The notes beneath the pieces are model-generated. The model ran no database searches and was not told where the DNA came from. It saw nothing but the letters and a program-made list of their open reading frames with translations. Below are positions 15,356-31,840 of a DNA stretch of 34,811 nucleotides, piece by piece (the stretch's first letter is position 1; each line of letters opens with the position of its first letter). This DNA comes from a virus. Where the stretch lies: the IMG/VR virus record IMGVR_UViG_3300021364_000082, positions 1 to 34,811 of that record; one strand, given 5' to 3'. The position numbers were made by a program, and so were the translations under genes.

Positions 15356-15363
15356 TATAAATA
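15356..15363 (+). promoter_or_regulatory. Late promoter TATAAATA for the first oxygenase/halogenase operon
   Basis: This is an exact TATAAATA, the T4 late-promoter consensus. The final A is also the first base of an ATG at 15363. The second in-frame ATG (15369) follows 5 nt later, where transcription should begin, so 15369 is probably the true, leaderless start. Confidence 0.75.
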
Positions 15364-15947
15364 TGCGTATGAAACTCACAAAAGACATAGGTGTATTTGA
15401 AAACGCTGTTAGCGATGAAATTTGCGATGACCTAGTTGCATATTATGCCAAACTAAGCGAAATGAATATGACACACTCTAGAATGAGCACAAAAGATGCG
15501 CCAGGACATCTAAAAAAGGATACTGCTGCATTTGTGCTAGAGGAACCAGCACTTACTGTTAGCACAGATAATCCAGCAGTACGAGAAAGCATTCAACAGA
15601 TCATATACTGCTGGGAGCAGTACATTGATCATTACAGTATTTTAACGACTGTGGATCCTCATAGGATCTACTATATGAAAATTCAAAAAACATTGCCCGG
15701 TGAAGGATATCATCAATGGCATTTTGAATCTGACAGTAGAGAAAGATCAGGTAGAGTAGCATCTTGGGGATTGTATCTTAATACTGTAGATGAAGGTGGC
15801 GAAACAGAATGGCTATATCAGAGTGTTAGAGTACCGGCTACCAAAGGAACTCTTGCTATATGGCCTGCAGGATACACTCATACTCACAGAGGAAATCCTC
15901 CGTTGAGTAATGAAAAATATTTGTTAACTGGTTGGATAGAATATTAA
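15363..15947 (+). CDS. 2-oxoglutarate/Fe(II)-dependent oxygenase
   Basis: This protein has 194 residues from the first ATG, or 192 if translation starts at Met3 (15369), which fits the promoter better. It has the prolyl-hydroxylase-like double-stranded beta-helix pattern. The proximal ligands are in GYHQWHFESD (H120-x-E122), followed by WGLYLNTVDEGGETEWLYQ. The distal part is GTLAIWPAGYTHTHRG (His173 or His175), with a final KYLLTGWIEY that would supply the 2OG-binding basic residue. The H-x-E variant and the GYH.WH context occur in marine phage members as I recall. It starts the plus-strand enzyme operon, and its stop overlaps the next start. The substrate is unknown. Confidence 0.8.
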   Translation: MRMKLTKDIGVFENAVSDEICDDLVAYYAKLSEMNMTHSRMSTKDAPGHLKKDTAAFVLEEPALTVSTDNPAVRESIQQIIYCWEQYIDHYSILTTVDPHRIYYMKIQKTLPGEGYHQWHFESDSRERSGRVASWGLYLNTVDEGGETEWLYQSVRVPATKGTLAIWPAGYTHTHRGNPPLSNEKYLLTGWIEY

Positions 15948-16573
15948 TGGAAAAAGTAAAACTCTTCCCTACAGATGTATTCGTTTTTAGAAACAATACT
16001 TTTGATAATAAAGCAATGATTGAACATTGTGAAAAATATGCCGACTTTATAAATGATGCTGAAGTGATTAGTTCTATGCGTAACTTGCACGATAAAGTAG
16101 AATTAAAACCTTTGTTTGATTGGTTTGATTCTTGTTTAGATGAGATACGAGTTTCTTGTCAATATGACTGTGAGAAATTTGCAATCACTAGTAGTTGGTT
16201 TAATAGAGCATTACCAAAGTCAGGTATGAAACTAAATGTGCATAGGCACAGTATGAGTTTTTTCAGTGCGGTGTATTACTTAACAGACGGGTCACCGACT
16301 GTGTTTGAAGATCCTGTAATACATAGATCACAAGCACAATTAGAAGTTTTACGTGTACACGATCAAGAATCAAGTCCACACCAAACAATAGATGCTGAAG
16401 CAGGAAAATTAATTATTTTTCCAAGTTGGTTATTTCATTTTAGTGCTCCACACATTGGTGATGAAGACAGATACATAATTAGTTTTAATACAATGCCAGA
16501 AGGCGATGTAAACTATAATATTGCAACTGACAGTGTTGCTTCTATAAAAATTTTAAACAGAGATAAAAGATAA
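15947..16573 (+). CDS. Putative 2OG-Fe(II) oxygenase (PF13759-like)
   Basis: This 208-residue protein starts at the ATG overlapping the previous TAA. The motif NVHRHSMSFFSAVYYLT (97-113) fits the N-x-H-x-H-P-x-S-x-x-SGVYY pattern of this putative oxygenase family. It is followed by VFEDP and the distal motif FPSWLFHFSAPHIGDEDRYIISFN, with His164 and Arg175. The W.N/W-F-N segment (ITSSWFNRALPKSGM) before the ligand motif is also typical. It is one of three such family members in the window (also 25577 and 27003). It precedes the first halogenase gene by 3 nt. The substrate is unknown; the genomic setting suggests virion-protein or small-molecule hydroxylation. Confidence 0.78.
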   Translation: MEKVKLFPTDVFVFRNNTFDNKAMIEHCEKYADFINDAEVISSMRNLHDKVELKPLFDWFDSCLDEIRVSCQYDCEKFAITSSWFNRALPKSGMKLNVHRHSMSFFSAVYYLTDGSPTVFEDPVIHRSQAQLEVLRVHDQESSPHQTIDAEAGKLIIFPSWLFHFSAPHIGDEDRYIISFNTMPEGDVNYNIATDSVASIKILNRDKR

Positions 16574-16576
16574 ACT

Positions 16577-18073
16577 ATGATTAATGATCTAATAGTATTA
16601 GGTGGTGGAAATGCAGGTCTAATGGCAGCATTATATCTACGTGCCGCATACCCTAATATGCAAATAAAAATTATTAAAAGTTCTAAAATAGGAACTATAG
16701 GAGTAGGCGAAGGAAGTACTGAACATTGGGCAAGATTTGCCCAAGCGACTGATATCTCTATGCCTGATATGATCAATCATTGCGGTGCTACTTTTAAGAT
16801 TGGTATTAAGTTTGAAAATTGGCACGGCGATGGAACTAGTTATTATCACAGTCTAGCAGAACCTTTTATATGGATGGACACATACAATGGTGCTGCACAT
16901 ACAATGATGCGTATGATTGCAGACGGTGTTGACAGTCAAAGCCTACACTGGCAATTGCCTGTAGATGGATATGTTGCTGAGCCTTTAACTGATTATTATC
17001 AATTCCACTTTGACAGTGAAAAACTAAATGCATATCTGCAAACAAAATGTATAGAAAGAAATATAAAAGTTGTCGAAGCAGAAATAGTAGATGCAAAACT
17101 AGATCAAGATGGTTTTGTTGAATCTATCGTAGATAAAGATAATATAGAATATTCAGCAGAATTTTTCATTGACAGCAGCGGCTTTAAAAGAGTTATTGCT
17201 AGTAAACTAGGAGCAGAATGGGTTGATTGGTCAAAGTATCTGCCAATGAACAGTGCTATTGCTTTTCAAACTCCTTATGAAGAAAAACTTCCTCCATACA
17301 CACTAGCAAAAGCAATGGACGCAGGATGGCATTGGAGGAGTCCTGTACAGGATAGATTTGGTAATGGCTATGTATTTGCAGATCAATTTATTTCAGAACA
17401 ACAAGCAGTTGACGAAATACAAAAACACTTTTCAGATACAATTAAGATAGGTCGTAAAATTAATTTTATATCTGGAAAAGTAAACAAAGCCTGGATTAAA
17501 AACTGTGTAAGTATTGGATTAAGCAGTAACTTTGTAGAACCTTTAGAAGCAAGTAGTATTTCAACTACTATACAACAAACAAAGTTACTAACCAGTGCAA
17601 TTTGGAACTGGAGTAGAAAAGACACAGGAACTATTAAAGAATATAATAGAGTATTTGATGATACACTTAATAATGTTTTAGATTTTATTCAATTGCATTA
17701 TTTTACAGAACGTACAGACACTGAGTTTTGGCGTTGGTGTAAGAATGAAATTACGATGACAGATTTTAATAAAGAAAATATAGAAATTTTTAAGAAAAAT
17801 TTTGTCAATCAAGTATTACTTCCTGAAGATGGTTTAATGAACAATTATAGAATTTATGATCATTTAAATTGGATCCAGGTTATGCACGGACTGCGTATGT
17901 TTGACGTTCCTAGTATCAAAAAAATATATGAAACATATTTTAGTAAATACAGGGTTGGTGATGAACAGCAGATTTCAACACTTCCTACTAAGCCAAGTGA
18001 AGGTTGGTATACCTGTAGAGAAGGAATAGAAAAAGTCAAACAACAATCGAAAGGTATTACGTACAAGTTATGA
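16577..18073 (+). CDS. Flavin-dependent (tryptophan-type) halogenase homologue 1
   Basis: This 498-residue protein has the FAD-binding GGGNAG at 9-14 and GVGEGSTEHW at 42-51. The catalytic lysine is in CGATFKIGIKF (K74, matching Lys79 of RebH/PrnA). FIDSSGF lies at 197-203, and the halogenase signature W-x-W-x-x-P is GWHWRSP (W251, W253). The active-site glutamate is in FVEPLEASS (E324, matching the Glu of EPLEST). Such enzymes use FADH2, O2 and halide to make an enzyme-bound haloamine on Lys. Both key residues are kept, but the usual Ser after Glu is Ala. The gene overlaps the next halogenase by 4 nt (ATGA). No flavin reductase is seen in the window, so FADH2 would come from the host or elsewhere. 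Confidence 0.87.
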   Translation: MINDLIVLGGGNAGLMAALYLRAAYPNMQIKIIKSSKIGTIGVGEGSTEHWARFAQATDISMPDMINHCGATFKIGIKFENWHGDGTSYYHSLAEPFIWMDTYNGAAHTMMRMIADGVDSQSLHWQLPVDGYVAEPLTDYYQFHFDSEKLNAYLQTKCIERNIKVVEAEIVDAKLDQDGFVESIVDKDNIEYSAEFFIDSSGFKRVIASKLGAEWVDWSKYLPMNSAIAFQTPYEEKLPPYTLAKAMDAGWHWRSPVQDRFGNGYVFADQFISEQQAVDEIQKHFSDTIKIGRKINFISGKVNKAWIKNCVSIGLSSNFVEPLEASSISTTIQQTKLLTSAIWNWSRKDTGTIKEYNRVFDDTLNNVLDFIQLHYFTERTDTEFWRWCKNEITMTDFNKENIEIFKKNFVNQVLLPEDGLMNNYRIYDHLNWIQVMHGLRMFDVPSIKKIYETYFSKYRVGDEQQISTLPTKPSEGWYTCREGIEKVKQQSKGITYKL

Positions 18074-19575
18074 TTAAAAGTCTATGTGTATTAGGTGGCG
18101 GAACTAGCGGATTAATTGCTGCATTAATGATGCGCAAAGCCTATCCTAATATGAAAATATCAATAATAGAATCCTCAAAAATAGGAATTATCGGAGTAGG
18201 TGAAGGTAGTACAGAACATTGGAAACAGTTTATGGATTATATCGATATCGATGTTCCTACAATTGTAAGAGAATGCGGTGCAACATTTAAGATAGGTATT
18301 AAATTTACTAATTGGAACGGTGACGGTAAAGCATACTGGCACAGTCTTACAGAACAATTTAGCACTCTACATACCGAAAATAATGCTCCACTTACTTGGA
18401 TGAAAATGATTGCAGAAAATTGGGATCCTGAAGAAACCTGTTGGGATTTATCTAGAAAAAGTTGGCACGTAGAACCTTATCACGATATATTAAGTCAATA
18501 TCACTTTGACACTTTTAAACTTAATGAATTTTTTCATAAACTGTGCAGCGAAAGAAATATTGAAATAATTGATACTGAAATCCAAGATGTTGTATTAGAT
18601 AACGAAGGTTATGTATCGCACTTAAAAGATAACGATAGACAATATGCATATGATTTTTATATAGATTGTTCAGGATTTGGTAGAGTTATCGCAACTAAAT
18701 TAGGTGTAAAATGGATTGATAAAAAAGATCAATTGCCAATGAATAGTGCTATTGCATTTCCGACAGGATACAAAGAAGAAATTCCAAGTTACACAGAAGC
18801 AACTGCACTTAGTAGTGGATGGGTATGGCGTATTCCTACACAAGAACGCTTTGGTAACGGCTATGTTTTTTGTGATGATTTTATTAACGAAGACAAAGCC
18901 TACGAAGAAGTTTCAATGCACTATAAAAATAATCTAGGAATTGATGATGAACTTAAAATAGGGCGGAAAGTAAAATTTGGTGCAGGTTATGTAGATAAGT
19001 TTTGGTCTAAAAACTGTTTGTCTTTAGGATTAAACGGAATGTTTGTTGAACCACTAGAAGCAAGTAGTATAGGTTCTACTATACAAGAAATGAGATTGTT
19101 TATACCAACTATACTTTATTGGTCAAAAGGCGAACAAAGAACTGAGAAAATTTTTAATGACAGAATGTCTGTGATTGCAGAAAACATTGTAGACTTTATT
19201 CAACTTCATTATATTACAAAAAGAAATGATACAGAGTTTTGGAGATGGGTGAACAACAACATCAAATACACAGATTTTATTAAAGAAAATTTAGATTATT
19301 TTAAAAACAACTATCCTAATGCACAGATTTTTAACGAAACTTTACAAATGTTCAGTTATTTAAATTGGATGCAAATAATGCACGGGTTAGGGTTGTTTAA
19401 TTATGATAAATGCAGTCAATATTGGAAAGAAACGTTTGCTACTGAACACGACGATCCCTTACTACGTCATATAAAAATCAACACAACAGTAAAACCTGAG
19501 CACGGTGCAAAACCTCATAGAGAAGTTTTAGAAATTTTAAAAACTAGATACGGCGAAACAAAATATGAATTCTGA
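18070..19575 (+). CDS. Flavin-dependent halogenase homologue 2
   Basis: This 501-residue protein is a close tandem paralogue of homologue 1, sharing GVGEGSTEHW, CGATFKIGIKF, LPMNSAIAF, RFGNGYVF and FVEPLEASS. GGGTSG (9-14) binds FAD. Lys74 and Glu330 are the expected catalytic pair, and GWVWRIP (W251, W253) is the halogenase signature, closer to canonical than in homologue 1. FYIDCSGF lies at 197-204. The ATGA overlap upstream and an 11-nt overlap with the third halogenase indicate coupled translation. The pair may form a heteromer or act on different positions of one substrate, but this is only inferred from the duplication. Confidence 0.88.
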   Translation: MIKSLCVLGGGTSGLIAALMMRKAYPNMKISIIESSKIGIIGVGEGSTEHWKQFMDYIDIDVPTIVRECGATFKIGIKFTNWNGDGKAYWHSLTEQFSTLHTENNAPLTWMKMIAENWDPEETCWDLSRKSWHVEPYHDILSQYHFDTFKLNEFFHKLCSERNIEIIDTEIQDVVLDNEGYVSHLKDNDRQYAYDFYIDCSGFGRVIATKLGVKWIDKKDQLPMNSAIAFPTGYKEEIPSYTEATALSSGWVWRIPTQERFGNGYVFCDDFINEDKAYEEVSMHYKNNLGIDDELKIGRKVKFGAGYVDKFWSKNCLSLGLNGMFVEPLEASSIGSTIQEMRLFIPTILYWSKGEQRTEKIFNDRMSVIAENIVDFIQLHYITKRNDTEFWRWVNNNIKYTDFIKENLDYFKNNYPNAQIFNETLQMFSYLNWMQIMHGLGLFNYDKCSQYWKETFATEHDDPLLRHIKINTTVKPEHGAKPHREVLEILKTRYGETKYEF

Positions 19576-21109
19576 TGTAGTAATACTCGGCGGCGGCTCT
19601 GCTGGATGGTTAACAGCATTATTTGTACAACGTTACTGGCCAAACCTTAATGTAACAATTGTAGAAAACCCTAAACGACCTCCTATTATTGCAGGAGAGA
19701 GCGGAACAACAACATTTGTTAGATTACTAAAAAGCATAAAAATAGATACTGAAGACTTTGTTAAGAAAGTAAATGCCACTCCTAAACTAGGAGGTAAGTT
19801 TACAGATTGGAATGGTGTTGGAACAGAATTTATTCATTGCTTACAAACTGACTACGCTCCTTGGTTAGACGGCTGGACAGATTATATGCAAAAAGATGCA
19901 ACCGATGACGAACTCAGATTAGGTAATCTTGTTAGAATACTTTCTCAAGAAAGAAGTAAAGACACATATCTTAGAACGATTGTAGGAAATGATATCCCAT
20001 TAGCCGATGCATTTTATGCTCAACAGTTTATACAAAATAACAAAGTTCCTTTTGGTCATTCAACAGATGACTTACCAGTTATTCCTATGTGGCATTTTGA
20101 AAGTAGGGCGGCAGCAGCGTATTTTAAAGAAATTGGTTTAGATCGTGGTATTAACCTTGTCGAAGGCGAATATGTTAAATCTAACCTTAGCGATAATGGT
20201 AACATCAAAAGTATTGTACTAGATGATAACAGAGAACTTTCTGCAAAATGGTTTTTTGACTGCTCAGGTTTTGCAAGACTGTTATTAGATAAAGTTTTAA
20301 AAGAACCGATTCTTGATTACAGTAAATATTTTCCTGCAAGAGCAGTAGTTGCGTGGTGGGATGATCCTTGTTATTGTGTAACAACAAATGCTATAGCAAT
20401 GAAATATGGTTGGAGTTGGAACATTAATCTTAGACATAGAAGCGGTAATGGTTATCTATACGATCCAGATCATTTAAATTTAGAACAAGCAATACAAGAA
20501 GCAGAAACACGATTCAATAAGAAAATTGATCCTATTGCAAACTTTAGTTTTCAGCCAGGTATGATGCGTAATACGTGGAAGAAAAATGTAATTGCTATTG
20601 GTTTAAGTAATGGATTTTTAGAACCATTAGAAGCAAATGGTATTGCAGTCATTATTGAAAGTTTGTATGCACTGCAAGATCACTGGAAGCCTACAGAAGA
20701 AACTATACCTAATGATAGGTTTAATCAGAGAGTATGGGAAGTAAGTGAAGATATTAAAGATTTCCTTGCACTACATTATAGAGGTCAACGACAAGACACA
20801 GAGTTTTGGTTAAGCCACAAACACGATGAAGATAGAATACCCGAAACTTTGAAATTAAAATTATCTGACTGGGAAGAGTGGTATAAAAGCCCTAATCTAA
20901 GCGAACCTACTTTTAACGGCTATAGTCCTACTGCTTGGTTGATGGTAATACAAGCACTAAAAATATTTAAAAATGATGTAATACACGAGCATTTCAACAA
21001 GGTTCTACCAATAGGCACAAAAGTGCTAAATAAGAACATAAAACGTTACAAGGAGCTCAGTGCTCCGTTTTGGACCATTGATAAATGGGTTCAGGAAATT
21101 GATAAATAG
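19565..21109 (+). CDS. Flavin-dependent halogenase homologue 3 (divergent)
   Basis: This 514-residue protein has GGGSAGW at 9-15. The second flavin motif is altered (IIAGESGTTTF at 41-51 instead of GVGE). The Lys region is NATPKLGGKF (K74), FFDCSGF is at 230-236, W-x-W is GWSWNINL (W283, W285; the proline is replaced), and the Glu region is FLEPLEANG (E356). The catalytic Lys and Glu are kept, but flanking residues differ from the other four halogenases, so it represents a third subtype with a likely different substrate. It ends the run of three halogenases on the plus strand. Just at its end lies a late-promoter-like GATAAATA that may serve the following small gene. Confidence 0.85.
   Translation: MNSDVVILGGGSAGWLTALFVQRYWPNLNVTIVENPKRPPIIAGESGTTTFVRLLKSIKIDTEDFVKKVNATPKLGGKFTDWNGVGTEFIHCLQTDYAPWLDGWTDYMQKDATDDELRLGNLVRILSQERSKDTYLRTIVGNDIPLADAFYAQQFIQNNKVPFGHSTDDLPVIPMWHFESRAAAAYFKEIGLDRGINLVEGEYVKSNLSDNGNIKSIVLDDNRELSAKWFFDCSGFARLLLDKVLKEPILDYSKYFPARAVVAWWDDPCYCVTTNAIAMKYGWSWNINLRHRSGNGYLYDPDHLNLEQAIQEAETRFNKKIDPIANFSFQPGMMRNTWKKNVIAIGLSNGFLEPLEANGIAVIIESLYALQDHWKPTEETIPNDRFNQRVWEVSEDIKDFLALHYRGQRQDTEFWLSHKHDEDRIPETLKLKLSDWEEWYKSPNLSEPTFNGYSPTAWLMVIQALKIFKNDVIHEHFNKVLPIGTKVLNKNIKRYKELSAPFWTIDKWVQEIDK
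21101..21108 (+). promoter_or_regulatory. Late promoter GATAAATA before the 56-residue gene
   Basis: GATAAATA covers the last codons of halogenase 3. It would give a leader of about 17 nt that includes the TAGGAG ribosome site before the ATG at 21131. Confidence 0.5.
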
Positions 21110-21130
21110 TACATATAGGAGTTATTTGTA

Positions 21131-21301: not shown

Positions 21302-21302
21302 G

Positions 21303-21929
21303 TTACCTATCAAAGCCCATTTGCTTACGAGCATTCTCTAACTCATCTTTTACTGCTTGATTAACAAATTCGCCGGGTAAACCTAAACAAGGCCTAGTAT
21401 CCCATTTCAAATGTGCATACGGGCCTTTTTCATCTACATACTGTAAAAATGCCTGGATAACTTTTTGTCCGGTATAAGGTTCTCTCCAGTGTTCGTGTCT
21501 ACGACCACTGTATATTACTATGTCGCCTACATCAAGATTTATTTCGTGTGTAATACCTTTTTCATTTTTTATGTACAACGGCCAGTCTTGTTCTTCTTTT
21601 GATATAGCAACACTTACACTTATTTCAGAACTACTTCTATCAAAGTGCTTTCCTAATTCTGATCCGTTATAATAAATCCTTGCATAACTGTATACAGGAA
21701 CAAGGTTAATTCCTACTTTTTCACTTACAAGAGGACATAATTTTACCATTAGTGCTTCAAACATTAATGGCGCATATCTTGCAAAAGTGTGTTCGCACAT
21801 ATCTGCTAGATTAGCACCAGGATATAAAACTTTGCAGACATCATTCTGCATCTCATATTCAAGTGCCATAAACTCACAAAGTTCTTTGCTTACAGCATTT
21901 TTAACTATTATGTAATCTTCTTTCATCAT
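21303..21929 (-). CDS. 2OG-Fe(II) oxygenase (prolyl 4-hydroxylase-like)
   Basis: This 208-residue protein has a canonical double-stranded beta-helix oxygenase pattern. YSYARIYYNGSELGKHFDRSSSE contains the H95-x-D97 pair, after the Y.R.Y..G..L..H.D arrangement of P4H domains. The distal motif is GDIVIYSGRRHEHWREPYTGQKVIQAFLQY, with His145 or His147 and Lys156 as the likely 2OG contact. The C-terminal 40 residues (RPCLGLPGEF and a helix) lie outside the domain. The start is the ATG overlapping the upstream TGA (ATGA); a second ATG follows immediately. It is the last gene of the 14-gene minus-strand operon and meets the plus-strand operon tail to tail. Confidence 0.85.
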   Translation of the reverse strand: MMKEDYIIVKNAVSKELCEFMALEYEMQNDVCKVLYPGANLADMCEHTFARYAPLMFEALMVKLCPLVSEKVGINLVPVYSYARIYYNGSELGKHFDRSSSEISVSVAISKEEQDWPLYIKNEKGITHEINLDVGDIVIYSGRRHEHWREPYTGQKVIQAFLQYVDEKGPYAHLKWDTRPCLGLPGEFVNQAVKDELENARKQMGFDR

Positions 21930-22480
21930 ACTAGCGGCATCATACTCATATTACCAAAAGGTCTTTCAACATAATTTCTAATAAACTTATTATCAGGAAT
22001 TGTGTGTATATCAAAACCTAATGTTGTTCTTACACCTTCAAATGGTTCTAAAACTTCTACCTTGTGATGTACATTCCCAGGTCCGAAATATATTTGTCCA
22101 GGTGTATTTTCGATAGTCCAATCCTCAAAAACTGTATTTGTTTTTTTAGGATCTACACAAATGTATCCGTGGTAATCAAATTCGTGTCCGTGCCAATCTA
22201 AAACTTCATCACACTTATGATAATTAATCCAAGATTGAAACCATAATGGTCTATCGTCGCCTAGAATTTGTCTTACAAATGTTCTGAGTTCTTTATATAA
22301 AATATACCAAGCGGTGCTAGGTGCTGTAAGTGCAAATACATTATATTTGTGATACGACCAAGTACTTTCGTCATTAGGAAAAACTGTTTTAAAAACTCTA
22401 TGTGCATCTTCTAAACAATGCATTATTTCGTCTTTATTTTCTAATATAATATTTGACTTTGTTAAATGGTAGTCTTTCAT
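21926..22480 (-). CDS. 2OG-Fe(II) oxygenase-like protein
   Basis: In this 184-residue protein the predicted core has WFQSWINYHKCDEVLDWHGHEFD (H97-x-H99 with nearby Glu/Asp), GYICVDPKKTNTVFED, and the distal FGPGNVHHKVEVLEPFEGVRTTLGFDI (His138 or His139, Arg151). The W.N....D.L.WH.H arrangement and the distal H...G.R pattern fit 2OG oxygenases of phage and natural-product clusters. The proximal acidic ligand is not a simple H-x-D, so the exact iron site is uncertain. It overlaps both neighbours by 4 nt, consistent with translational coupling. Confidence 0.72.
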   Translation of the reverse strand: MKDYHLTKSNIILENKDEIMHCLEDAHRVFKTVFPNDESTWSYHKYNVFALTAPSTAWYILYKELRTFVRQILGDDRPLWFQSWINYHKCDEVLDWHGHEFDYHGYICVDPKKTNTVFEDWTIENTPGQIYFGPGNVHHKVEVLEPFEGVRTTLGFDIHTIPDNKFIRNYVERPFGNMSMMPLV

Positions 22481-23088
22481 ATCATTATCTTACTTAAATT
22501 AATATTAATTACACATCTAAACTTACTGTCTCGTGCCCAAGACGAACTGTGATAATATTTTCCTGGAAATACAACTACCCTTCCTTGTTTAGGTTCTACT
22601 CTTTGTTTAACTGTGAAATTTCCATTCTTAATTCTTACTATATCATCTTCGCCACTACTGTAGTTGTCATTAGTTTCGTTAAAAATTACAGTGTCACCAT
22701 CACAATCATTTACGTAATAGATAGCATTCCAATGTTCAAAAAAACTATCTATGTGAGGCATATGCCAATCAAGTTTACTTGTTTTATTAGGTAATGTTAA
22801 ATTCGCTCTCATTCTAATTAATCTATTAACCGGAACTTTAGTATTACTTGTAATACTTAAAACTAAAGGATAGATAAAATTAAAGTGCTGACTCTTAGGT
22901 TCGTTATCTTCAAAAAAGAAGTGATTAAATCCTGCGTGATTATCTTCTTGGTTTTGAAAATCGTCATCTGGTGAAACCATTGATTGGTTGAAAACCCAAC
23001 CTAAGTCCCAACCTGTCATTAAACGTAATATCTGATCTGAATAATCTTTAGGAATAACATTATCAATTACAATTATATCATCACTCAT
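22477..23088 (-). CDS. 2OG-Fe(II) oxygenase
   Basis: This 203-residue protein has a clear facial triad: PHIDSFFEHWNAIYYVND with H112-x-D114, and FPGKYYHSSSWARDSKFRCVINI with His180 and Arg191. The segment DCDGDTVIFNET between them is shared with the protein at 24309 (ADGDTVIFHET), as are the RLIRMRANL and PLVLSITS regions. The two are therefore paralogues from a duplication inside this operon. It overlaps both neighbours by 4 nt. The substrate is unknown. Confidence 0.85.
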   Translation of the reverse strand: MSDDIIVIDNVIPKDYSDQILRLMTGWDLGWVFNQSMVSPDDDFQNQEDNHAGFNHFFFEDNEPKSQHFNFIYPLVLSITSNTKVPVNRLIRMRANLTLPNKTSKLDWHMPHIDSFFEHWNAIYYVNDCDGDTVIFNETNDNYSSGEDDIVRIKNGNFTVKQRVEPKQGRVVVFPGKYYHSSSWARDSKFRCVININLSKIMI

Positions 23089-24316: not shown

Positions 24317-24899
24317 TTATTTCACTCGCAGTAAAATTCATTGTCATTACTATTCTTTTTGTCATTACCATAGGACAAGTACTAGCGTGAAAATGCCAAC
24401 CGTTGAAAACAACAACCTTACCTTGTAAAGGAGTACTTTTTAAAAGAGGACGGTACTTTTCACCTTCGGGTTTAGGTTCTGTTTCGTGAAAAATCACAGT
24501 ATCACCGTCAGCATTATTCACGTAGTAGCACGCCACATAGTGTTCTTGTTCAAAATCTCTATGCGGAGTGTTATACTTGTATCCCATAGATGGTACAGGA
24601 TACTTTGTATTCAATAAAAATCCTAATCTCATACGCAGAAGTTTGTCTAGTTTTAAACCTGCTGCATCACAAGTTGAATTTAACAAGGGTAAGAAAAAAT
24701 CTAAATGTGGACCGTTTTGATTATTTTGATGATACACTAGATTAGCAAATGACGGAGTTGCAAATCTCGGATCATTTGTTTTTTCATATGTTGTATCATC
24801 CATATAATGCCAATCAAAATTTATATCTGTGACATAGTCATAGATCTTTTCTGAATATTCTTTATCAATTACATCATATATTTCTTTTGGTTCAAACAT
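24309..24899 (-). CDS. 2OG-Fe(II) oxygenase
   Basis: This 196-residue protein has its triad in NTPHRDFEQEHYVACYYVNN (H113-x-D115) and FNGWHFHASTCPMVMTKRIVMTMNF (His171, with Arg182 as the likely 2OG contact). NADGDTVIFHETE lies between. It is paralogous to the protein at 22477, with similar length, the DGDTVIF segment and the LRMR strand. It overlaps the JmjC-like gene upstream and the DUF6445-like gene downstream by 8 nt each. Confidence 0.85.
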   Translation of the reverse strand: MFEPKEIYDVIDKEYSEKIYDYVTDINFDWHYMDDTTYEKTNDPRFATPSFANLVYHQNNQNGPHLDFFLPLLNSTCDAAGLKLDKLLRMRLGFLLNTKYPVPSMGYKYNTPHRDFEQEHYVACYYVNNADGDTVIFHETEPKPEGEKYRPLLKSTPLQGKVVVFNGWHFHASTCPMVMTKRIVMTMNFTASEING

Positions 24900-25656
24900 C
24901 TTCTATCCTATACATTCTTCTATCAATACTTGCTTCTTCTGGTTCCGTTGGTAATTTCTGCCAACACGGAATACTCATTGATAATCTTTTGCCTTGTGGA
25001 TACGCACAATGATACATTCTAGAAGGAATGTAAAGTACGTCTCCTGGTTTAAGTGTTACATCTAAAGATAATTCTAAATCTTTTTCTTGTAATTTGTTTG
25101 CAAGTAATCCTGTTCTATGCATATAAGTTATTCTATTATTAAAAATTTTCCATCTAGTTTCCCCTTCTACTTGTATGATAAAGTTCGCTGGGTAATCTTC
25201 GTGTATGTTAAAACTTTTTGCATCTTTTAATCCAAAATATACGTGTATAGCAGCATTTATACTGTACATACTTTCAAACATTGCTAATAGTTCCATAGTT
25301 TTTTCACTATAAAAACCATAGTCCATATTAATTAATCCATAACCTTCGTGTAGTTTATCGAACAGAAACTTTTTATCTTGTACATTAAATTTGCCCCAAC
25401 TTTTATTATACGCTGGAACTTCTATTTTACTGCCTGCAGGATCAATTACTTCAAAATTATATTGTGCAGAGTTGTTTAATGTCCACTCTACATCTTTCCA
25501 AGTACAATATACACTCGGATCGGGAATTAGATTTTCCCAATAATGCGGTGCATCATTGACAAGTAAATCTGTTTCTTTAAGTATTCTTTGGGAAATATCT
25601 GTCATCATCTGTTCTGTAAAGTTTAACATTCCAAGAAATACTAATTCTGTCCTCAT
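24892..25656 (-). CDS. JmjC/cupin-type Fe(II)/2OG hydroxylase
   Basis: This protein has up to 254 residues. The JmjC-like core has AAIHVYFGLKDAKSFNIHEDYPANFIIQVEGETRWKIF with H152-x-D154, and the distal block LKPGDVLYIPSRMYHCAYPQGKRLSMSI with His216. The order fits bacterial ribosomal-oxygenase and asparaginyl-hydroxylase relatives (Cupin_4/Cupin_8), in which G-D-x-L-Y-I-P-x-x-x-x-H is diagnostic. Known relatives hydroxylate protein side chains, which favours a protein substrate here. The start is uncertain. The ATG at 25656 overlaps the upstream gene by 80 nt; later in-frame ATGs at 25629, 25608 and 25605 reduce this overlap. None has a good ribosome site. Confidence 0.8.
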   Translation of the reverse strand: MRTELVFLGMLNFTEQMMTDISQRILKETDLLVNDAPHYWENLIPDPSVYCTWKDVEWTLNNSAQYNFEVIDPAGSKIEVPAYNKSWGKFNVQDKKFLFDKLHEGYGLINMDYGFYSEKTMELLAMFESMYSINAAIHVYFGLKDAKSFNIHEDYPANFIIQVEGETRWKIFNNRITYMHRTGLLANKLQEKDLELSLDVTLKPGDVLYIPSRMYHCAYPQGKRLSMSIPCWQKLPTEPEEASIDRRMYRIEDV

Positions 25657-26203
25657 CTGTGTTATTTCTTTCTACTCCGTGAGGTAAGTTTCCTGGAAAT
25701 ATTAACATTTTTCCTTTCTCTGCTTCGTATCTTATACCACTTGCACTTATTGCAGTATGTGTTTCAATAGGCGCTCTGGATGCTACTATATAATCTGCAT
25801 TATAGTCTTTGTAAAAAATAATTCCGCCTTGTTCCGGCATTGCTTTTACATAGAATGCACCACTGATAAAAGAATTATCGTGGATGTGTACACTATTTGT
25901 ATCACCTTTTTTGTTTATGTTAAACCATAAATTTTCTATTACAACAAATCCTGCATCTTTTTTATAACCATAATCGTCTACACATCTGTTTGCTTGTTCT
26001 AGTATCAAGTCTTCTAGAGGTTTTAATTCAGGAATAGTATCTGGACGAAAATCCATTGATTGCCATCCTCCCTGATTACTAAGGGTTCTTCCTACTTTAT
26101 CTTTTTCGTATAATTCATATGCCAATTTTTCTAAACTATCACAATCAATAGCAGTATTTGCCCACCAAACTGGCATAGGAAAAAATTGATCAAAGTTCCA
26201 CAT
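25577..26203 (-). CDS. Putative 2OG-Fe(II) oxygenase (PF13759-like)
   Basis: This 208-residue protein is a good match to the family pattern: FFPMPVWWAN at the N-terminus, SNQGGWQSMDF (42-52), NLWFNINKKGDTNSVHIHDNSFISGAFYVK (H106-x-H108), GGIIFYKD, and KMLIFPGNLPHGVERNNTDEDRISISWNV (His175, Arg186). It is the most canonical of the three family members in this window. Its ATG overlaps the last base of the upstream stop (TAATG). The C-terminal end overlaps the JmjC-like gene. Confidence 0.85.
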   Translation of the reverse strand: MWNFDQFFPMPVWWANTAIDCDSLEKLAYELYEKDKVGRTLSNQGGWQSMDFRPDTIPELKPLEDLILEQANRCVDDYGYKKDAGFVVIENLWFNINKKGDTNSVHIHDNSFISGAFYVKAMPEQGGIIFYKDYNADYIVASRAPIETHTAISASGIRYEAEKGKMLIFPGNLPHGVERNNTDEDRISISWNVKLYRTDDDRYFPKNT

Positions 26204-27006
26204 TAAAATTTAATCTCCTTCATTGTAGTTGGAGGACTTAGATGTGAATATGCAAATGCGTGGCTCCATCTAAATTTTACATTATCTGAAATAACAGCAC
26301 TATGGCATATGTCTGCTTTATACATTGTCATTTTTCCTCTAATACTAGGCGCTTGTCCTTTAAATTCAAAACCCCATTTTTCTAATTCTTCGTCCGGTAT
26401 ATTAAACCAAGCATCTGCTCTAGTAGGATTTTCTGCTAATTGTTTCCATTCTTTGTGCATAGGATGTTTTTCATCTATTTGAAAATCATACACACTATCT
26501 TTTATCTCTCCTTTATACTTATAGAGCTTTGTGCTGCTGTCTTCTATATCGTGAGATGTAAACCATAAATTGGCTACCATACCTTTTGGATAATCAACGT
26601 GAGGTATTCTCCAACAAGTAATTGGCTTTGCTCTTTCTTTGTAATAAACATTACCCCATTCGTGTATTTGAGGTTCCATAATAGGAGGGTTATTGTAATT
26701 TGCAATATAAAAATCTTTAATCAAAACACAAATATCTTCATAAACCCAGTTTGGTAAATGAACAGTGTCAAACGGATTAGGGTCAAAATTATCAGGATGA
26801 TTATTGTCTTTTACAATAGGAAAACACTGTACTAATTGTTCGAACGTTTCGAATCCCTGATCATCTTCAAATGGATGGTCGGTTAACCAATAACCGATGT
26901 CGTCACCTAAGTCGATGTATTCAGCATTTAATTGGTCATACTTTTTAAATTTGAATACTTGGTGAAAATAATTAGCATCTGGATAACAAATTTTAAAATC
27001 TATCAT
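26203..27006 (-). CDS. 2OG-Fe(II) oxygenase-like protein
   Basis: In this 267-residue protein the predicted triad is in ITCWRIPHVDYPKGMVANLWF (H136-x-D138) and KMTMYKADICHSAVISDNVKFRWSHAF (His235, Arg246). The N-terminal 130 residues have no recognisable domain and are rich in Asp, Tyr and Pro. A long insert between the two halves (150-225) includes EWKQLAENPTRADAWFNIP, which could form a substrate lid. Related H-V-D...W.SHAF arrangements occur in uncharacterised phage proteins. It overlaps both neighbours in TAATG or ATGA fashion. Confidence 0.72.
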   Translation of the reverse strand: MIDFKICYPDANYFHQVFKFKKYDQLNAEYIDLGDDIGYWLTDHPFEDDQGFETFEQLVQCFPIVKDNNHPDNFDPNPFDTVHLPNWVYEDICVLIKDFYIANYNNPPIMEPQIHEWGNVYYKERAKPITCWRIPHVDYPKGMVANLWFTSHDIEDSSTKLYKYKGEIKDSVYDFQIDEKHPMHKEWKQLAENPTRADAWFNIPDEELEKWGFEFKGQAPSIRGKMTMYKADICHSAVISDNVKFRWSHAFAYSHLSPPTTMKEIKF

Positions 27007-27584
27007 TTTATATTAAATGTCATAACTATTCGTTCTTGGTCTGTTTCATTGGGCTGTACTCTATGTTTCAACCACCCAGGAAAAATTAATACATCATTAG
27101 TTTGAACTTGTACTGAAGTATAGTTCATTTCATTAACAATAGGAAATGTTGTTTTATGATATTCAAGTGGATCTTTGAATTCGATATTGCCTGTATTAGG
27201 AGGACATAATACATAACAACTTGCTACCCAAGTTGTAAAATTGTGAGAATGTTCTAGTGTATATCCGCCTCTGAAATGTCTATTAAACCAAGATCCCATT
27301 ACTGTTGATTGGCGCTCATAGAAATCGTGTTCGTCTTTGATGTGTGTTAATTTTTCACCTAGCCAAGTTTGGAAATTGTGAAGTTCCATCCACGTGTGAG
27401 GTTGATGTATTTCATCTGATGAAACAGTAGAAAGTGCTTCTCCTTTTTCAAGAAGAGAGTTTTTTTCTACATCTTTGATTGCAGCATCTATTCTTGGTCT
27501 TAACTTATCTAAATCGAACTCATACGTAAACTTATAAATGTAAGGCAAGAATATGTGTATGCCGCCATTACTCTGCATTTCCAT
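27003..27584 (-). CDS. Putative 2OG-Fe(II) oxygenase (PF13759-like)
   Basis: This 193-residue protein is read from the ATG at 27584, which has AGGAAG 6 nt upstream; an in-frame ATG at 27599 has a weaker site and a longer overlap. The family pattern is present: GSWFNRHFRGGYTLEHSHNFTTWVASCYVL (H112-x-H114), NIEFKDP, and DVLIFPGWLKHRVQPNETDQERIVMTFN (His174, Arg185). The GSWFN segment matches the SSWFN of the protein at 15947, so these two are probably the closer pair. It follows the coiled-coil gene with a short overlap. Confidence 0.82.
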   Translation of the reverse strand: MEMQSNGGIHIFLPYIYKFTYEFDLDKLRPRIDAAIKDVEKNSLLEKGEALSTVSSDEIHQPHTWMELHNFQTWLGEKLTHIKDEHDFYERQSTVMGSWFNRHFRGGYTLEHSHNFTTWVASCYVLCPPNTGNIEFKDPLEYHKTTFPIVNEMNYTSVQVQTNDVLIFPGWLKHRVQPNETDQERIVMTFNIK

Positions 27585-27825
27585 CTGTTGCTTCCTCATA
27601 GGCTTCCAATGCTAACTGTAGGCCCATTTCAGTACCTTCCATTTTTAGAATGTCCTGAGAAAGTTCTTGTCTTTTGGAAAAATCAATAGATGTGATTCCG
27701 TATGGATTTAGTTTAACGTCTTGGAAATCTTCTTCCAATTTTGCTAATTCTGCTGTTGCTTTATTTTTTTCTGCTGTAACGTTTGCTAACGTTAAGTTCA
27801 GTTTTTCTTTATATTCTTTTGTCAT
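27568..27825 (-). CDS. Small coiled-coil protein
   Basis: This 85-residue protein begins MTKEYKEKLNLTLANVTAEKNKATAELAKLEEDF, a heptad-rich helix. A break at KLNPYGITSIDF follows, then a second helix (SKRQELSQDILKMEGTEM...LALEAYEEATD). This suggests a helical hairpin. I recognise no family. It has a good ribosome site (GAGGA) and a possible internal late promoter upstream, and it lies between the halogenase part and the oxygenase part of the operon. It may be a scaffold for the enzymes, but there is no direct evidence. Confidence 0.65.
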   Translation of the reverse strand: MTKEYKEKLNLTLANVTAEKNKATAELAKLEEDFQDVKLNPYGITSIDFSKRQELSQDILKMEGTEMGLQLALEAYEEATDGNAE

Positions 27826-27826
27826 A

Positions 27827-28612
27827 TTATTCCATCCTCTGCTTGTACTTATTTAAAACGTTTGCTGCTCTCTGTAATCTTGAAGCAAGTGGATCTTTCT
27901 CCAAAATTGTGCAATTTGCAGCATAATTATAGGCTTGTTCTTTTCTATAATCTTTGTCATTTCCTTCATCTATTATAACATCATATTCGTTATAATTCAA
28001 GTCTTTTCTTTTCATAGGAACATATTGGCATAACGGAGTTCCTGCACGTATCAAAGTTGTATCGTTTAGTACTTTCCAAAACAACTGAACATTTACTACG
28101 TGTGAATATCTTGGATCTAATATGCCAATAGCACTTTGAAATCTATCTTCATTGTTATAAGTTACAGGAAGTTGTAGAAAAACTATATCATCACTGCATT
28201 CTATTCTCCAAGGTGTTTCTATTTTTACAACAGTTCTTAATGTATCTTTTGGATCATCTAATATAGGATCTGTTTGAGCAGCATCGTGCGAAGTTATATA
28301 ACTTTCAGAACCAGGTACTCCTTTATGGAATTTCATTGGCTCTCTCCAACTAAAACTTGCACCGTCACCTGTAGTAGATATTTCAAAATCTGCAGGAGCA
28401 GTTACTATAAATCCGGTGGTTGCTATTTTTCTAATACCTGGACAGTTTTTAACTGGTAAAACACCTTCTGGGCTTGATGACTTAGTAAAAGGTCTTTTGA
28501 CTTCTGCTGATTTAATTATTGGATGCAAATCTTTTACACCTGGATATATTGAATAAAATCTAATATATGGTTTCTTACGAAATTTATCAAATATTTTTTT
28601 AAGCATAATCAT
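27827..28612 (-). CDS. Conserved-looking protein of unknown function (possible DUF6065-like)
   Basis: This protein is 261 residues from the ATG at 28612, chosen for AAGG 5 nt upstream and minimal overlap with the halogenase stop. The N-terminus is basic (MLKKIFDKFRKKPYIRFYS). The core has VKNCPGIRKIATTGFIVTAPADFEIST, then GASFSWREPMKF, FLQLPVTYNNE and GTPLCQYVPMKRKDL. The C(P/x)G...G(F/Y)....P.D then AGTPL.Q..P layout resembles uncharacterised DUF6065-type proteins found near 2OG oxygenases and halogenases, as I recall; I could not verify this. No metal or nucleotide motif is evident. It follows two halogenases directly, so it could be a substrate-binding or delivery protein. Confidence 0.6.
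   Translation of the reverse strand: MIMLKKIFDKFRKKPYIRFYSIYPGVKDLHPIIKSAEVKRPFTKSSSPEGVLPVKNCPGIRKIATTGFIVTAPADFEISTTGDGASFSWREPMKFHKGVPGSESYITSHDAAQTDPILDDPKDTLRTVVKIETPWRIECSDDIVFLQLPVTYNNEDRFQSAIGILDPRYSHVVNVQLFWKVLNDTTLIRAGTPLCQYVPMKRKDLNYNEYDVIIDEGNDKDYRKEQAYNYAANCTILEKDPLASRLQRAANVLNKYKQRME
27850..27857 (-). promoter_or_regulatory. Possible internal late promoter TTTAAATA
   Basis: The minus strand reads TTTTAAATAAG, about 25 nt before the ATG at 27825 and inside the end of the upstream gene. It would add separate late transcription of the coiled-coil and oxygenase genes. The match is weaker than at the other sites. Confidence 0.35.
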
Positions 28613-30209
28613 CTTTGCCTTTGTATATTTCATTTAGCAAAAAGTCATAATGTGTAGGACAGTTATTGACTATATTCTGTACGTACTCTTTATATTGATA
28701 GTATTGTTTTTTAACAAATTCGAGTTCTTCAATTTTATCTCTATTAAATCTTGTACCGTTTAGTATAACCAATTCTTTAGTTGAAATTGGTTTTAATCCC
28801 ATACCTGCTGCAATAAACAACGCTGGAGGAAAATTAGAAATCCACTGTTGATCCATAGTCATTGTTCCGATCAAATTCATATACTGAGCCTGTCTAGTGA
28901 CATATTGATCAAGCATTTCTGTACCAAACTCGTGTTCGTTTGATTGATATTGCCAGTAAGGAGTATCTTCACGGAGACTTAGTGCATAGTGTTGCGAAAC
29001 AAAATCTCTAAATTTTAGTACTTCGTGTTCTACAGCAAAATTAAATCCTAATTTTTCTGTTCCAGTAACTGCTCCGTTGCGTCTATTTAATATTTCAACT
29101 AATTTAATAATATTTTCGTGTGTTGTTAGTAGTCCTGTTGATTCAAGTGGTTCGACAAAACCGTAACTTAATCCAACCCCTACTACATTCTTTTCCCAAC
29201 CTTTTGCTCTTCTTCCGTGCTTAATATTAATATGATACATTTCTGCATTTTCGGCTCTTTCTTTAGATCCTGTAGTTGCTAAATGCTCTCTAAATTCTTT
29301 TTGTGCTTGATCTTTATCTACAAATTTACTACTATAAACATAACCTGTTCCAATTCTATTCCAAAGAGGTATATTCCAAACCCAGCCATTTTGGATAGCG
29401 TGACAGTCTGTGTAGTTGTGCATTTCATTAACACGATCTTCATACGGAATACGACAAGCCCAGGCACAGTCATTTGCTAAATGTGTGTCAAAAGACTTGA
29501 ACTCAACCCCTAAATATTCGCCTAATAACAGCGATTTAAAGCCCGTACAGTCGAGGAAAAGGTCTGATGCTAGTGTTGTACCATCTTCTAGCGAAATATG
29601 CTTTAAACCGCCGTTATTTTGGTACTCACAGCCCTTAATATGTCCGTGTATATGTTTTACACCATTAGGAATAGCGATATTATCCCGAAGGTATTCTCCA
29701 AATAACTGAGCATCTACGTGATAAGCAGTATCCCATCTAAAGTCGTAGTGTCTTAATGCACCATCTTGGTTTTTTGTTTGTTTGTTTTGATCGGATAGCA
29801 ATGTGTTAGCCGTAGCATAAAACTCAGCAAATGTATTTGGTCCAAATTCTTCCGGATAGATAGTTGCTAATTCTCCCCAGGTTATAATACCGTTTGGTTT
29901 ATCTGTTAGATCAAAACCTAAACTAAAAGGATACTGAAAACTAGTTCCGTCATTTTCTCGAAAATTTGTAAATCTGATAGAATTTTTATATGTGGCATTA
30001 CAATGAGGCATCCAATCCTCATCTTTAAGTCCGAGTAAACCTAAGAACTTAGTAACGTGTCCTAGTGTGCTTTCACCAACACCTATAGTTTTAATCTTAC
30101 TTGATTCAACTAACGTAACATCTATATGAGGACACAGTTTTGATATTGCTGCTGCTGCCATCCAACCCGAACTGCCGCCGCCGACAATAGTAATTGTTTT
30201 AACTTTCAT
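28599..30209 (-). CDS. Flavin-dependent halogenase homologue 4
   Basis: This 536-residue protein has the canonical halogenase motifs: GGGSSGWMAA (10-19), GVGESTLGH (43-51), CNATYKNSIRF with Lys75, FLDCTGF (218-224), GWVWNIPLWNRIGTGYVY (W276, W278), and FVEPLESTG with Glu356-Ser357. All residues that place tryptophan and form the Lys haloamine in PrnA/RebH-type enzymes have counterparts. It resembles the halogenase type reported from cyanophage Syn10 (VirX1), which iodinates and brominates varied aromatics; this is by general class only. It is a tandem paralogue of homologue 5, which is 8 nt upstream. TAGGAT upstream of the ATG is the ribosome site. Confidence 0.9.
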   Translation of the reverse strand: MKVKTITIVGGGSSGWMAAAAISKLCPHIDVTLVESSKIKTIGVGESTLGHVTKFLGLLGLKDEDWMPHCNATYKNSIRFTNFRENDGTSFQYPFSLGFDLTDKPNGIITWGELATIYPEEFGPNTFAEFYATANTLLSDQNKQTKNQDGALRHYDFRWDTAYHVDAQLFGEYLRDNIAIPNGVKHIHGHIKGCEYQNNGGLKHISLEDGTTLASDLFLDCTGFKSLLLGEYLGVEFKSFDTHLANDCAWACRIPYEDRVNEMHNYTDCHAIQNGWVWNIPLWNRIGTGYVYSSKFVDKDQAQKEFREHLATTGSKERAENAEMYHINIKHGRRAKGWEKNVVGVGLSYGFVEPLESTGLLTTHENIIKLVEILNRRNGAVTGTEKLGFNFAVEHEVLKFRDFVSQHYALSLREDTPYWQYQSNEHEFGTEMLDQYVTRQAQYMNLIGTMTMDQQWISNFPPALFIAAGMGLKPISTKELVILNGTRFNRDKIEELEFVKKQYYQYKEYVQNIVNNCPTHYDFLLNEIYKGKDDYA

Positions 30210-30217
30210 CGGCTATC

Positions 30218-31840
30218 CTACTCAGTGTCGTATTCGTCTTTGCCGCCGTAAACGTGTTCCTTTAGAAACTCATAATGTGTTGGCATCTTTTTTACTAGAT
30301 CTTCAACATAATCTCTATACTCTTCGAATCTACGTCTAGCATATCCCATTGCCTCTTCTCTCATACTTTGATCAATTCTATCACCAAAGTTATAAACTAG
30401 TTTTGGAGTTCCTATTGGCTTAACTCCTTGACCTGCTGCAATAAACAAGTTACCTGTGTACATTTCAGGATAGTTGTATGAACTTGCAATGTTACCAACA
30501 ACATTAGGAAACTGTGCTTGTTTCATCATTTCAGGGTTAAACATATTAGGATCATATTCATTAAGTTCTGTACACCAACGCCAGTATGGAGTATCTTCTC
30601 TAGCACTCAATGCATAGTGTTGAGCAACAAAATCTCTAAACATCTTAATTTCCCAATCAACTGCTAGATTAAAACCATCTCTTTCAGATCGTGTTACAAA
30701 ACCATCACGTCTGTTAAGTGCTTCGACTAGTTTGATAATATTTTCGTGTGTAGTAAGTAATCCTGTTGACTCAAGCGGTTCAACAAATCCATAACTTAAA
30801 CCTACACCAACTACATTACCTACCCACGCTCTTGATCTACATCCGTGTCTAATTTGTATATGCATCATTTCTGCTTGTTCAGCAATTTCAGGTGTATGTG
30901 CTTTGGCAAGATGTGCTCGGAATTCTTTTTGTGCATCTTCTGGAGTTATAAATCTTGAAGAAAAAACATATCCAGTTCCTACTCTATTCCATAATGGAAT
31001 ATTCCATACCCAACCGTTGCCAAGTGCGTGACAATCTGTAACGTTATGCATTTGATTTTTTCTATCGTGATATGGTAGTCTACAAGCCCAGGCCATATCG
31101 TTTGCTAGATAATTTCCAAAAGATTCAAATCTAGATCCCATCCAGTTTTCTAATAGTACAGATCTAAAACCTGTACAGTCGATCCATAGATCAGAATTTA
31201 AAATTGTTCCATCTTCACAAAATACCTGAGTTAGATATGTGTTAGTAGGATCTTTTTGATGTGAATGAATATCTGCTTCAATGTGTTTTACACCTAAAGG
31301 TAAACAAATTGTTTCTTTTAAATATTGACCAAATGCCTGTGCATCCATATGATAGGCTGTATCATATTGAAAGTTGAAATTTCTCAGTGCACCGTTTTGA
31401 TTTTTTGTTTGTCTATTATGTTTTGCAAGTAATGTATTACCTGTGCAGAAAAATTCTGCAAAACTTTCAGGACCAAAATCTTCAGGATATGTTGCTGCAA
31501 GGTATGCCCAATCATTTAATCCGTTTGGTTTATCTGTGTGATCTAGTCCGTCGCTAAAAGGATACTGAAATACTTCTCCTTTATTTTCTCTAAAGTTGGT
31601 AAATTGAATTGAATTTTTGTAAGTAGCATTACACGCAGGCATCCAATCTTCATCTTTTAGATCTAATAATCTAAAATATCTATTAATATGTCCTAGTGTG
31701 CTTTCTCCAACACCTACTGTGCCTTTAAATTTGGATTCAACTAATGTTATATCCAAATGAGGACATAATTTGGCTAGTGCTGCGGCTGTCATCCATCCCG
31801 AGCTGCCTCCGCCAATAATTGTTACTGTTTTATATTTCAT
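30218..31840 (-). CDS. Flavin-dependent halogenase homologue 5
   Basis: This 540-residue protein has GGGSSGWMTA (10-19), GVGESTLGH (43-51), CNATYKNSIQF with Lys75, WIDCTGF (219-225), GWVWNIPLWNRVGTGYVF (W277, W279) and FVEPLESTG with Glu357-Ser358. It is very similar to homologue 4 along its whole length, so the pair arose by tandem duplication. The ribosome site is AAGGTGA before the ATG, and a late promoter lies 35-42 nt upstream. It is the first gene of the 14-gene operon. The C-terminal helix ends YVEDLVKKMPTHYEFLKEHVYGGKDEY, like homologue 4. Confidence 0.9.
   Translation of the reverse strand: MKYKTVTIIGGGSSGWMTAAALAKLCPHLDITLVESKFKGTVGVGESTLGHINRYFRLLDLKDEDWMPACNATYKNSIQFTNFRENKGEVFQYPFSDGLDHTDKPNGLNDWAYLAATYPEDFGPESFAEFFCTGNTLLAKHNRQTKNQNGALRNFNFQYDTAYHMDAQAFGQYLKETICLPLGVKHIEADIHSHQKDPTNTYLTQVFCEDGTILNSDLWIDCTGFRSVLLENWMGSRFESFGNYLANDMAWACRLPYHDRKNQMHNVTDCHALGNGWVWNIPLWNRVGTGYVFSSRFITPEDAQKEFRAHLAKAHTPEIAEQAEMMHIQIRHGCRSRAWVGNVVGVGLSYGFVEPLESTGLLTTHENIIKLVEALNRRDGFVTRSERDGFNLAVDWEIKMFRDFVAQHYALSAREDTPYWRWCTELNEYDPNMFNPEMMKQAQFPNVVGNIASSYNYPEMYTGNLFIAAGQGVKPIGTPKLVYNFGDRIDQSMREEAMGYARRRFEEYRDYVEDLVKKMPTHYEFLKEHVYGGKDEYDTE

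Follow-up and report, generated by a model that had tools for sequence, protein, structure and literature searches.

A flavin halogenase and oxygenase-fold gene cassette linked to glycine-rich tail proteins in a jumbo-type phage contig: a candidate adhesin-modification system

VirX1, the flavin halogenase of cyanophage Syn10, catalyses iodination and is of value in biocatalysis. It has halogenating activity and a large open active site, and a review lists no native substrate for it (PMC8407142). The genome of cyanophage S-CREM1 codes for ten 2-oxoglutarate (2OG) proteins and one PrnA, interpreted as serving auxiliary metabolism or antibiotic protection (PMC9964418); cyanophage 2OG genes have so far been loosely explained by nitrogen control, DNA repair or antibiotics. 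Here we analyzed the IMG/VR virus record IMGVR_UViG_3300021364_000082, a linear contig of 34.8 kb (34,811 nucleotides, the whole of which is called the window), coding for five flavin halogenases (FDH1-FDH5) and 12 double-stranded beta-helix (DSBH) proteins (OX1-OX5, OX7-OX12 and a JmjC protein).

The window carries an enlarged form of a gene cluster that is already present in public genomes and is a previously unrecognised adhesin-linked module. Its minus operon has syntenic counterparts in published cyanophages, among them S-CREM1, Syn9 and Syn10, a near-twin of Syn9; the minus half is found in the same order in Syn9 gp38-gp54 and S-CREM1 ORF66-80, and in shorter forms in S-RIM44, P-TIM40, P-RSM6, Sf-FP1, S-WAM1 and Sf-FR1. 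The first-pass annotation, made from the sequence alone, knew of no described system of this size, which does not stand, most of the minus operon being held by Syn9 and S-CREM1. No literature linking halogenases to adhesins was found in a search that left subscription journals mostly outside. On comparative grounds, the cassette is probably a tail-adhesin modification or maturation system. Three paralogous glycine-rich tail proteins (GLYa-GLYc) are encoded immediately upstream of the small protein p1787 and the enzyme block. The features of the locus are as follows.

34208..34810, minus: GLYc, putative glycine-rich tail-tip adhesin, truncated by the contig end (PF21722 E 1e-9; paralogue of GLYb)
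33340..34197, minus: GLYb, putative glycine-rich tail-tip adhesin (phrog_863 tail fibre assembly E 1e-48; AlphaFold/Foldseek matches)
32462..33316, minus: GLYa, putative glycine-rich tail-tip adhesin (PF21722 E 6e-6; aligned with GLYb)
31951..32457, minus: p1787, small protein between adhesins and halogenases (phrog_1787 E 9e-22)
31907..31930, minus: intrinsic terminator separating p1787 and FDH5 (10-pair stem and T run)
31875..31881, minus: late-type box ATAAATA 5' of FDH5 (positional motif test)
30218..31840, minus: FDH5, flavin halogenase, VirX1 orthologue (PDB 6qgm 646 bits; 53.5% identity to the Syn10 gene)
28599..30209, minus: FDH4, flavin halogenase, VirX1-type paralogue (PF04820 E 2e-104)
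27827..28633, minus: p7084, dUTPase-fold protein, role unassigned (AlphaFold predicted local distance difference test, pLDDT, 88; Foldseek dUTPases E 1e-4)
27568..27825, minus: sm85, small conserved protein with an LNPYGITSIDF motif (alignment)
27003..27599, minus: OX3, PF13759 oxygenase-fold protein (Pfam; HxH..H)
26203..27006, minus: OX4, oxygenase-fold protein (phrog_3234/1644; HxD..H)
25577..26203, minus: OX5, PF13759 oxygenase-fold protein (PF13759 E 6e-21; PDB 3bvc, 2rg4; HxH..H)
24892..25656, minus: JmjC oxygenase, related to NO66 histidyl- and L16 arginyl-hydroxylases (PF08007 E 8e-18; PDB NO66 E 5e-7; HxD..H)
24309..24899, minus: OX7, oxygenase-fold protein (sub-threshold Pfam; PHROG; HxD..H)
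23606..24316, minus: OX8, DUF6445-type oxygenase-fold protein (PF20043 E 1e-17; HxD..H)
23085..23609, minus: OX9, DUF6445-type, metal triad lost (PF20043 E 3e-8)
22477..23088, minus: OX10, oxygenase-fold protein (sub-threshold Pfam; HxD..H)
21926..22480, minus: OX11, probable oxygenase-fold protein (phrog_2696, phrog_81 E 6e-6; HxH..H)
21303..21929, minus: OX12, oxygenase-fold protein (phrog_2954; HxD..H)
15356..15363, plus: late-type box TATAAATA heading the plus operon, overlapping the first ATG
15363..15947, plus: OX1, PF13640 oxygenase-fold protein (PF13640 E 6e-9; HxE..H)
15932..16573, plus: OX2, PF13759 oxygenase-fold protein (PF13759 E 9e-15; HxH..H)
16577..18073, plus: FDH1, flavin halogenase (PF04820 E 1e-104)
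18070..19575, plus: FDH2, flavin halogenase (PF04820 E 5e-99)
19565..21109, plus: FDH3, flavin halogenase (PF04820 E 2e-86)
10317..15281, minus: flanking block (phrog_677, phrog_9729, PF00082)
10317-11915 and 13989-15281, minus: two flanking fibre genes
11935-13980, minus: S8 peptidase between the fibre genes

Co-occurrence of the cluster with glycine-rich adhesins in related phages, proposed by the first-pass annotation as a check, was detected in all 42 p1787-bearing loci, the window among them: a GLY gene lies -4 to 126 nucleotides upstream of p1787, and the next downstream gene is a halogenase, or OX5 followed by a halogenase. The p1787 gene was found in 20 of 50,697 phage records, a set identical to the 20 records with a VirX1-type halogenase at about 40% identity or above. 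GLY matches were detected in 18 of the 50,697, all within those 20 records; for the two P-TIM40 records GLY was assigned by gene order, read in one of them. In each of eight contigs (114-278 kb), Gly_rich_2 genes occur nowhere but within about 4.5 kb of the VirX1-type halogenase, with a random-placement product over the eight contigs of 6e-11, uncorrected for relatedness.

Two S-RIM44 isolates with flanks about 95% identical differ by one block. In the isolate with the cluster, the block codes for a long fibre together with three GLY proteins, p1787, two halogenases, p7084 and six oxygenase-fold proteins. In the other isolate the fibre is 51-58% identical, the adhesin (294 aa, phrog_2415) is of a type not rich in glycine, and these are accompanied by a small phrog_2504 protein and a single oxygenase-fold gene. 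Enzymes and adhesin have thus been swapped jointly. In the ACG-2014d records (KJ019xxx, about 165000-167600) and in S-SSM4 (156300-158780), the phrog_2415 adhesin is followed, at a distance of about 2 kb, by an OX4-like gene, and oxygenases without halogenases may accompany other adhesins such as phrog_2415.

Similar pairings were detected elsewhere. A phage-like contig in an actinobacterial metagenome-assembled genome codes for a His/Gly-rich protein, a 138-aa protein, an oxygenase-fold protein, a halogenase and p7084. This contig, RHAS01000028.1 (Actinomycetota), is probably phage DNA; its positions 2-4451 hold tail-like genes and a protein with 20% His adjoining the oxygenase-fold, halogenase and p7084 genes. 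In actinophage DSL-LC01, collagen-like genes are located one gene upstream of the halogenase. One 2OG gene, ORF23 of S-TIM4, which was mutated in the course of host adaptation (PMC6224464), was considered as support and not used: it adjoins CP12 and is near gp5, outside this cassette.

Foldseek matched the AlphaFold model of GLYb (pLDDT 78, above 90 in a large part of the tip) to the Pam3 fibre 7ypx (E 9e-8) and the Bxb1 tail tip, and then to the ALK/LTK glycine-rich domains. By sequence, the comparison of GLY with PDB gave a spurious antibody match only, and the fold search was needed. Pam3 gp24 contacts the host receptor via its glycine-rich domain and resembles S16 gp38 (PMC9608196). According to these models, the GLY proteins are putative receptor-binding tail-tip adhesins. 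Their tips contain 30% Gly and 6.3% His, compared with 1.0% His in the other structural proteins of these phages, and the conserved candidate target residues (GLYb numbering) include W109, Y167, H197, H220, H249, H251 and H254.

The five halogenase homologues, arranged in two convergent groups as first read from the sequence, all match PF04820 (E 2e-86 to 1e-105, Pfam). Their catalytic Lys and Glu, reported as retained in all five copies, are invariant in the alignment of 252 full-length homologues (Lys75 and Glu357, FDH5 numbering). The flavin adenine dinucleotide (FAD) motif GxGxxG near the N terminus is present in 240 of the 252 and was read directly in all five window copies; WxWxIP is kept in FDH2, FDH4 and FDH5, and is WHWRSP in FDH1 and WSWNIN in FDH3. 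Halogenating activity is known only for the relative VirX1, of which FDH5 is the orthologue by sequence. The statement that phages are known to carry only single halogenases was incorrect, since Syn9/Syn10, P-TIM40 and P-RSM6 have two each and S-RIM44 has three. No VirX1-type relatives were found in the bacterial genomes searched. FDH1-type relatives occur in ordinary bacterial loci of Sphingomonas, Caulobacter and Alteromonas, where nearby long open reading frames (ORFs) suggest TonB-receptor contexts. Two records labelled Bacteriophage sp. (MT835646, MT837902) resemble such bacterial halogenase loci and were left out of the phage counts; the MT835646 locus has large outer-membrane-receptor-like ORFs and a SapC-like ORF.

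The assignment of 12 DSBH proteins was borne out by Pfam, PHROG relatives and GenBank annotation. Seven of them pass the Pfam cut-off (OX1, OX2, OX3, OX5, JmjC, and OX8 and OX9 through DUF6445), OX7 and OX10 have sub-threshold Pfam matches, and OX4, OX11 and OX12 are supported by PHROG relatives, for OX4 and OX11 together with the GenBank annotation of the S-CREM1 orthologues. Profile comparison of OX11 with OX10 gave no useful match. The HxD/E..H facial triad of 2OG-Fe(II) oxygenases is present in 7/12, being HxD..H, conserved among orthologues, in OX4, JmjC, OX7, OX8, OX10 and OX12, and HxE..H in OX1. A conserved HxH..H replaces it in OX2, OX3, OX5 and OX11, which we do not claim as canonical 2OG enzymes; OX2, OX3 and OX5 belong by sequence to the PF13759 family. 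OX9 lacks the His pair and is a probable pseudoenzyme. Thus 11 of the 12 keep a possible metal site, in agreement with the ten or eleven iron sites counted at first pass. The nearest solved relatives of the JmjC protein, the NO66 histidyl hydroxylase and the L16 arginine hydroxylase, act on polypeptides, which points to peptide substrates. Orthologues of the oxygenase-fold proteins in Syn9, S-RIM44 and P-TIM40 are named DNA endonuclease V, ferrochelatase or minor coat protein in RefSeq, a probable misannotation, apparently via PHROG names.

Scans of viral contigs detected at least 80 FDH1 loci, at least 80 FDH5 loci and 11 FDH3 loci. Most of the 40 large contigs counted pack 4-5 halogenases into about 14 kb, as two convergent groups, and the 23 contigs with at least 4 halogenase ORFs have 12-16 oxygenase-fold genes each. 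The order of the minus block is near-constant (GLYc-GLYb-GLYa-p1787-FDH5-p7084-sm85-OX3-OX4-OX5-JmjC-OX7-OX8-OX9-OX10-OX11-OX12), and its head-on meeting with FDH3-FDH2-FDH1-OX2-OX1 is nearly constant across contigs. An assembly artefact was rejected as an explanation because the same layout recurs in many contigs.

The label of a T4-like marine phage was too narrow. The window's tail sheath and neck proteins have their nearest relatives in the jumbo phages Phosso, PA5oct and Atu_ph07 (40-47% identity), not in cyanophages, placing the backbone, as judged by these proteins, in a PA5oct/Phosso-like jumbo lineage. Among 20 contigs searched for the sheath, 14 mega-cluster contigs share the window sheath at 48-85% and two Syn9-like contigs match it at the C terminus only. 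Most Kyanoviridae cyanophages carry psbA; a search of 16 large, possibly incomplete contigs found this gene missing from 15. The presence of the same cassette in two unrelated phage backbones implies horizontal movement as a unit, and the cassette appears to have crossed between phage lineages.

Late-type promoters had been proposed for the operons, and a shared box agrees with this. ATAAATA was found just 5' of the gene start in 67 of 110 cases (61%) from 21 jumbo-type loci, compared with a median of 7% for its anagrams. By gene, it precedes FDH5 in 17/21, p1787 in 14/21, the fibre genes at 13989 and 10317 in 8/8 and 6/8, neck14 in 6/10 and OX1 in 6/18, marking enzyme operons and structural genes alike. 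Read from sequence, this predicted late-type promoter supports late expression. The box at 15356 overlaps the first ATG, so the true OX1 start is uncertain. TATAAATA occurs twice in the window, no more often than chance would give (4.8 expected), and the sigma-70 scan and Rfam gave nothing exceeding chance or threshold.

For the small proteins, the PDB search found no relative of p1787, so we infer from its position that it is possibly a tail-fibre chaperone. In the dUTPase-fold model of p7084, D82, G170 and D173 (invariant) and Q203 (near-invariant) may be counterparts of the dUTPase motifs. Several contigs have a weaker p7084 paralogue near the plus operon.

From the linkage, the joint exchange and the shared late-type box, we infer the substrate, the modified residues, the benefit and the roles of the small proteins as follows. 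Late in infection, GLYa-GLYc would be made along with p1787, halogenases and Fe-dependent oxygenases from the same block, and the enzymes would most likely act on the adhesins during assembly. The oxygenases would hydroxylate adhesin side chains, and the halogenases, with host reduced FAD, O2 and halide, would halogenate exposed His, Tyr or Trp of the Gly/His-rich tip, with p1787 as probable fibre chaperone; p7084 and sm85 may assist as a scaffold or helper. Modification would change the receptor binding or the stability of the tip, and in jumbo phages the second, convergent cassette OX1-OX2-FDH1-3 would widen the repertoire. Serial hydroxylation and halogenation of adhesin side chains, the leading hypothesis at first pass, is thus favoured, as a candidate reading, by the comparative evidence. 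The broader proposal, of a mobile system in which halogenases and up to about 16 oxygenase-fold enzymes modify the phage's own tip, giving host recognition through non-encoded chemistry and a native role for VirX1, seems to us evenly balanced. If true, enzymatic halogenation and hydroxylation of adhesins would let viruses adjust their host binding, adding a layer of variation in host recognition that sequence does not show. The adhesin linkage offers one concrete testable substrate for VirX1 and the 2OG genes in the cultured isolates Syn9, Syn10, S-CREM1 and S-RIM44.

Several observations weigh against adhesin modification. DSL-LC01 has no oxygenase beside its halogenase. The halogenases of Campylobacter phage CP21, S-B64 and S-SCSM2R and the third S-RIM44 copy, which are more distantly related, are located away from fibres, and our claim is therefore confined to the VirX1-type cassette with its extension in jumbo phages. 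Nor does the plus operon always adjoin fibre genes, its other neighbour being either fibre or neck-region genes; separation from fibre genes, named beforehand as counter-evidence, was thus seen in part for the plus operon and not for the VirX1-type half. In addition, phage fibre loci are exchange hot spots collecting accessory genes, and linkage alone could mislead. Genes merely parked at such a hot spot might act on a host protein (ribosome), on 2-oxoglutarate/nitrogen control or in DNA/nucleotide modification, as the similarity of JmjC to the ribosomal oxygenases NO66 and L16 hydroxylase, the p7084 dUTPase fold and the proposed 2OG drawdown (PMC3037559) would allow. We consider parking quite unlikely, since the pairing is strictly with one adhesin family and, among the records listed, not with the alternative phrog_2415, a near-fixed 15-gene order is kept in unrelated backbones, and pairings occur elsewhere.

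Flavin halogenases usually belong to natural-product pathways, antibiotic protection was proposed for cyanophage PrnA (PMC2984593; PMC9964418), and the S-SSM7/S-SSM6a cluster was interpreted as a secondary-metabolite or capsule-decoration system (PMC7824862). A fibre-linked island that serves the infected cell by producing or altering a secondary metabolite or other small molecule, such as an antibiotic, signal or toxin, is nevertheless improbable: searches of the cassette found neither a scaffold-building enzyme nor a carbamoyltransferase, sugar enzyme or transporter, in contrast to S-SSM7, and the adhesin linkage and joint exchange would be left unexplained. Co-inheritance of adhesin and enzymes is also accounted for if the target of the enzymes is instead the host surface (glycan, lipid, outer-membrane protein) bound by the same adhesin, resulting in superinfection exclusion or less progeny loss on debris, and the substrates of PF13640/PF13759 oxygenases are unassigned. 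Flavin- and iron-dependent enzymes would, however, work in the cytoplasm, no secretion signals were seen by eye in the sequences and the JmjC relatives act on proteins, making host-surface modification unlikely. It is very improbable that sm85 or the 56-aa ORF at 21131-21301 is the precursor of a peptide natural product tailored by the enzymes: sm85 is small, conserved and inside the enzyme operon, but looks helical with a conserved centre and has no variable Trp/Tyr/Pro-rich core, and neither protease nor transporter was found in the enzyme operons.

Other observations concern the surroundings. The peptidase between the fibre genes (11935-13980) is subtilisin-like, and in S-B64 a gene annotated as peptidase is directly 3' of the halogenase. 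The 56-aa ORF (21131-21301, plus strand; MAKYKIILRKETGKLP...) follows FDH3 and has ATAAATA just 5' of it. An ORF with a Cys-rich HNH-like or zinc-finger pattern (4566-4901, plus strand) overlaps the end of the deoxynucleoside monophosphate (dNMP) kinase gene.

The closest known systems share features with the window. The Sphingomonas, Caulobacter and Alteromonas loci share the halogenase family (29-40% identity, often at least two copies), while the oxygenase-fold, p7084 and adhesin homologues are nearly absent there. Pam3 gp24 and S16 gp38 share the glycine-rich receptor-binding tail-tip fold. The S-SSM7/S-SSM6a cluster likewise combines a phage halogenase with several oxygenases (PMC7824862), but has carbamoyltransferases, sugar enzymes and a methylase, none of which were found in the window cassette. 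S-CREM1 ORF66-80 has the shared order of two glycine-rich proteins, p1787, one halogenase, p7084, sm85 and nine oxygenase-fold proteins, with one halogenase compared with the five of the window. The neighbourhood of Syn10 VirX1 (PDB 6qgm), read in Syn9 gp38-gp54, shares the order adhesin, p1787, halogenase, p7084, sm85 and oxygenase-fold genes, with FDH5 about 53% identical; compared with Syn9 and Syn10, the window adds FDH3, FDH1, FDH2, OX1 and OX2 as a convergent operon, in a jumbo-phage backbone.

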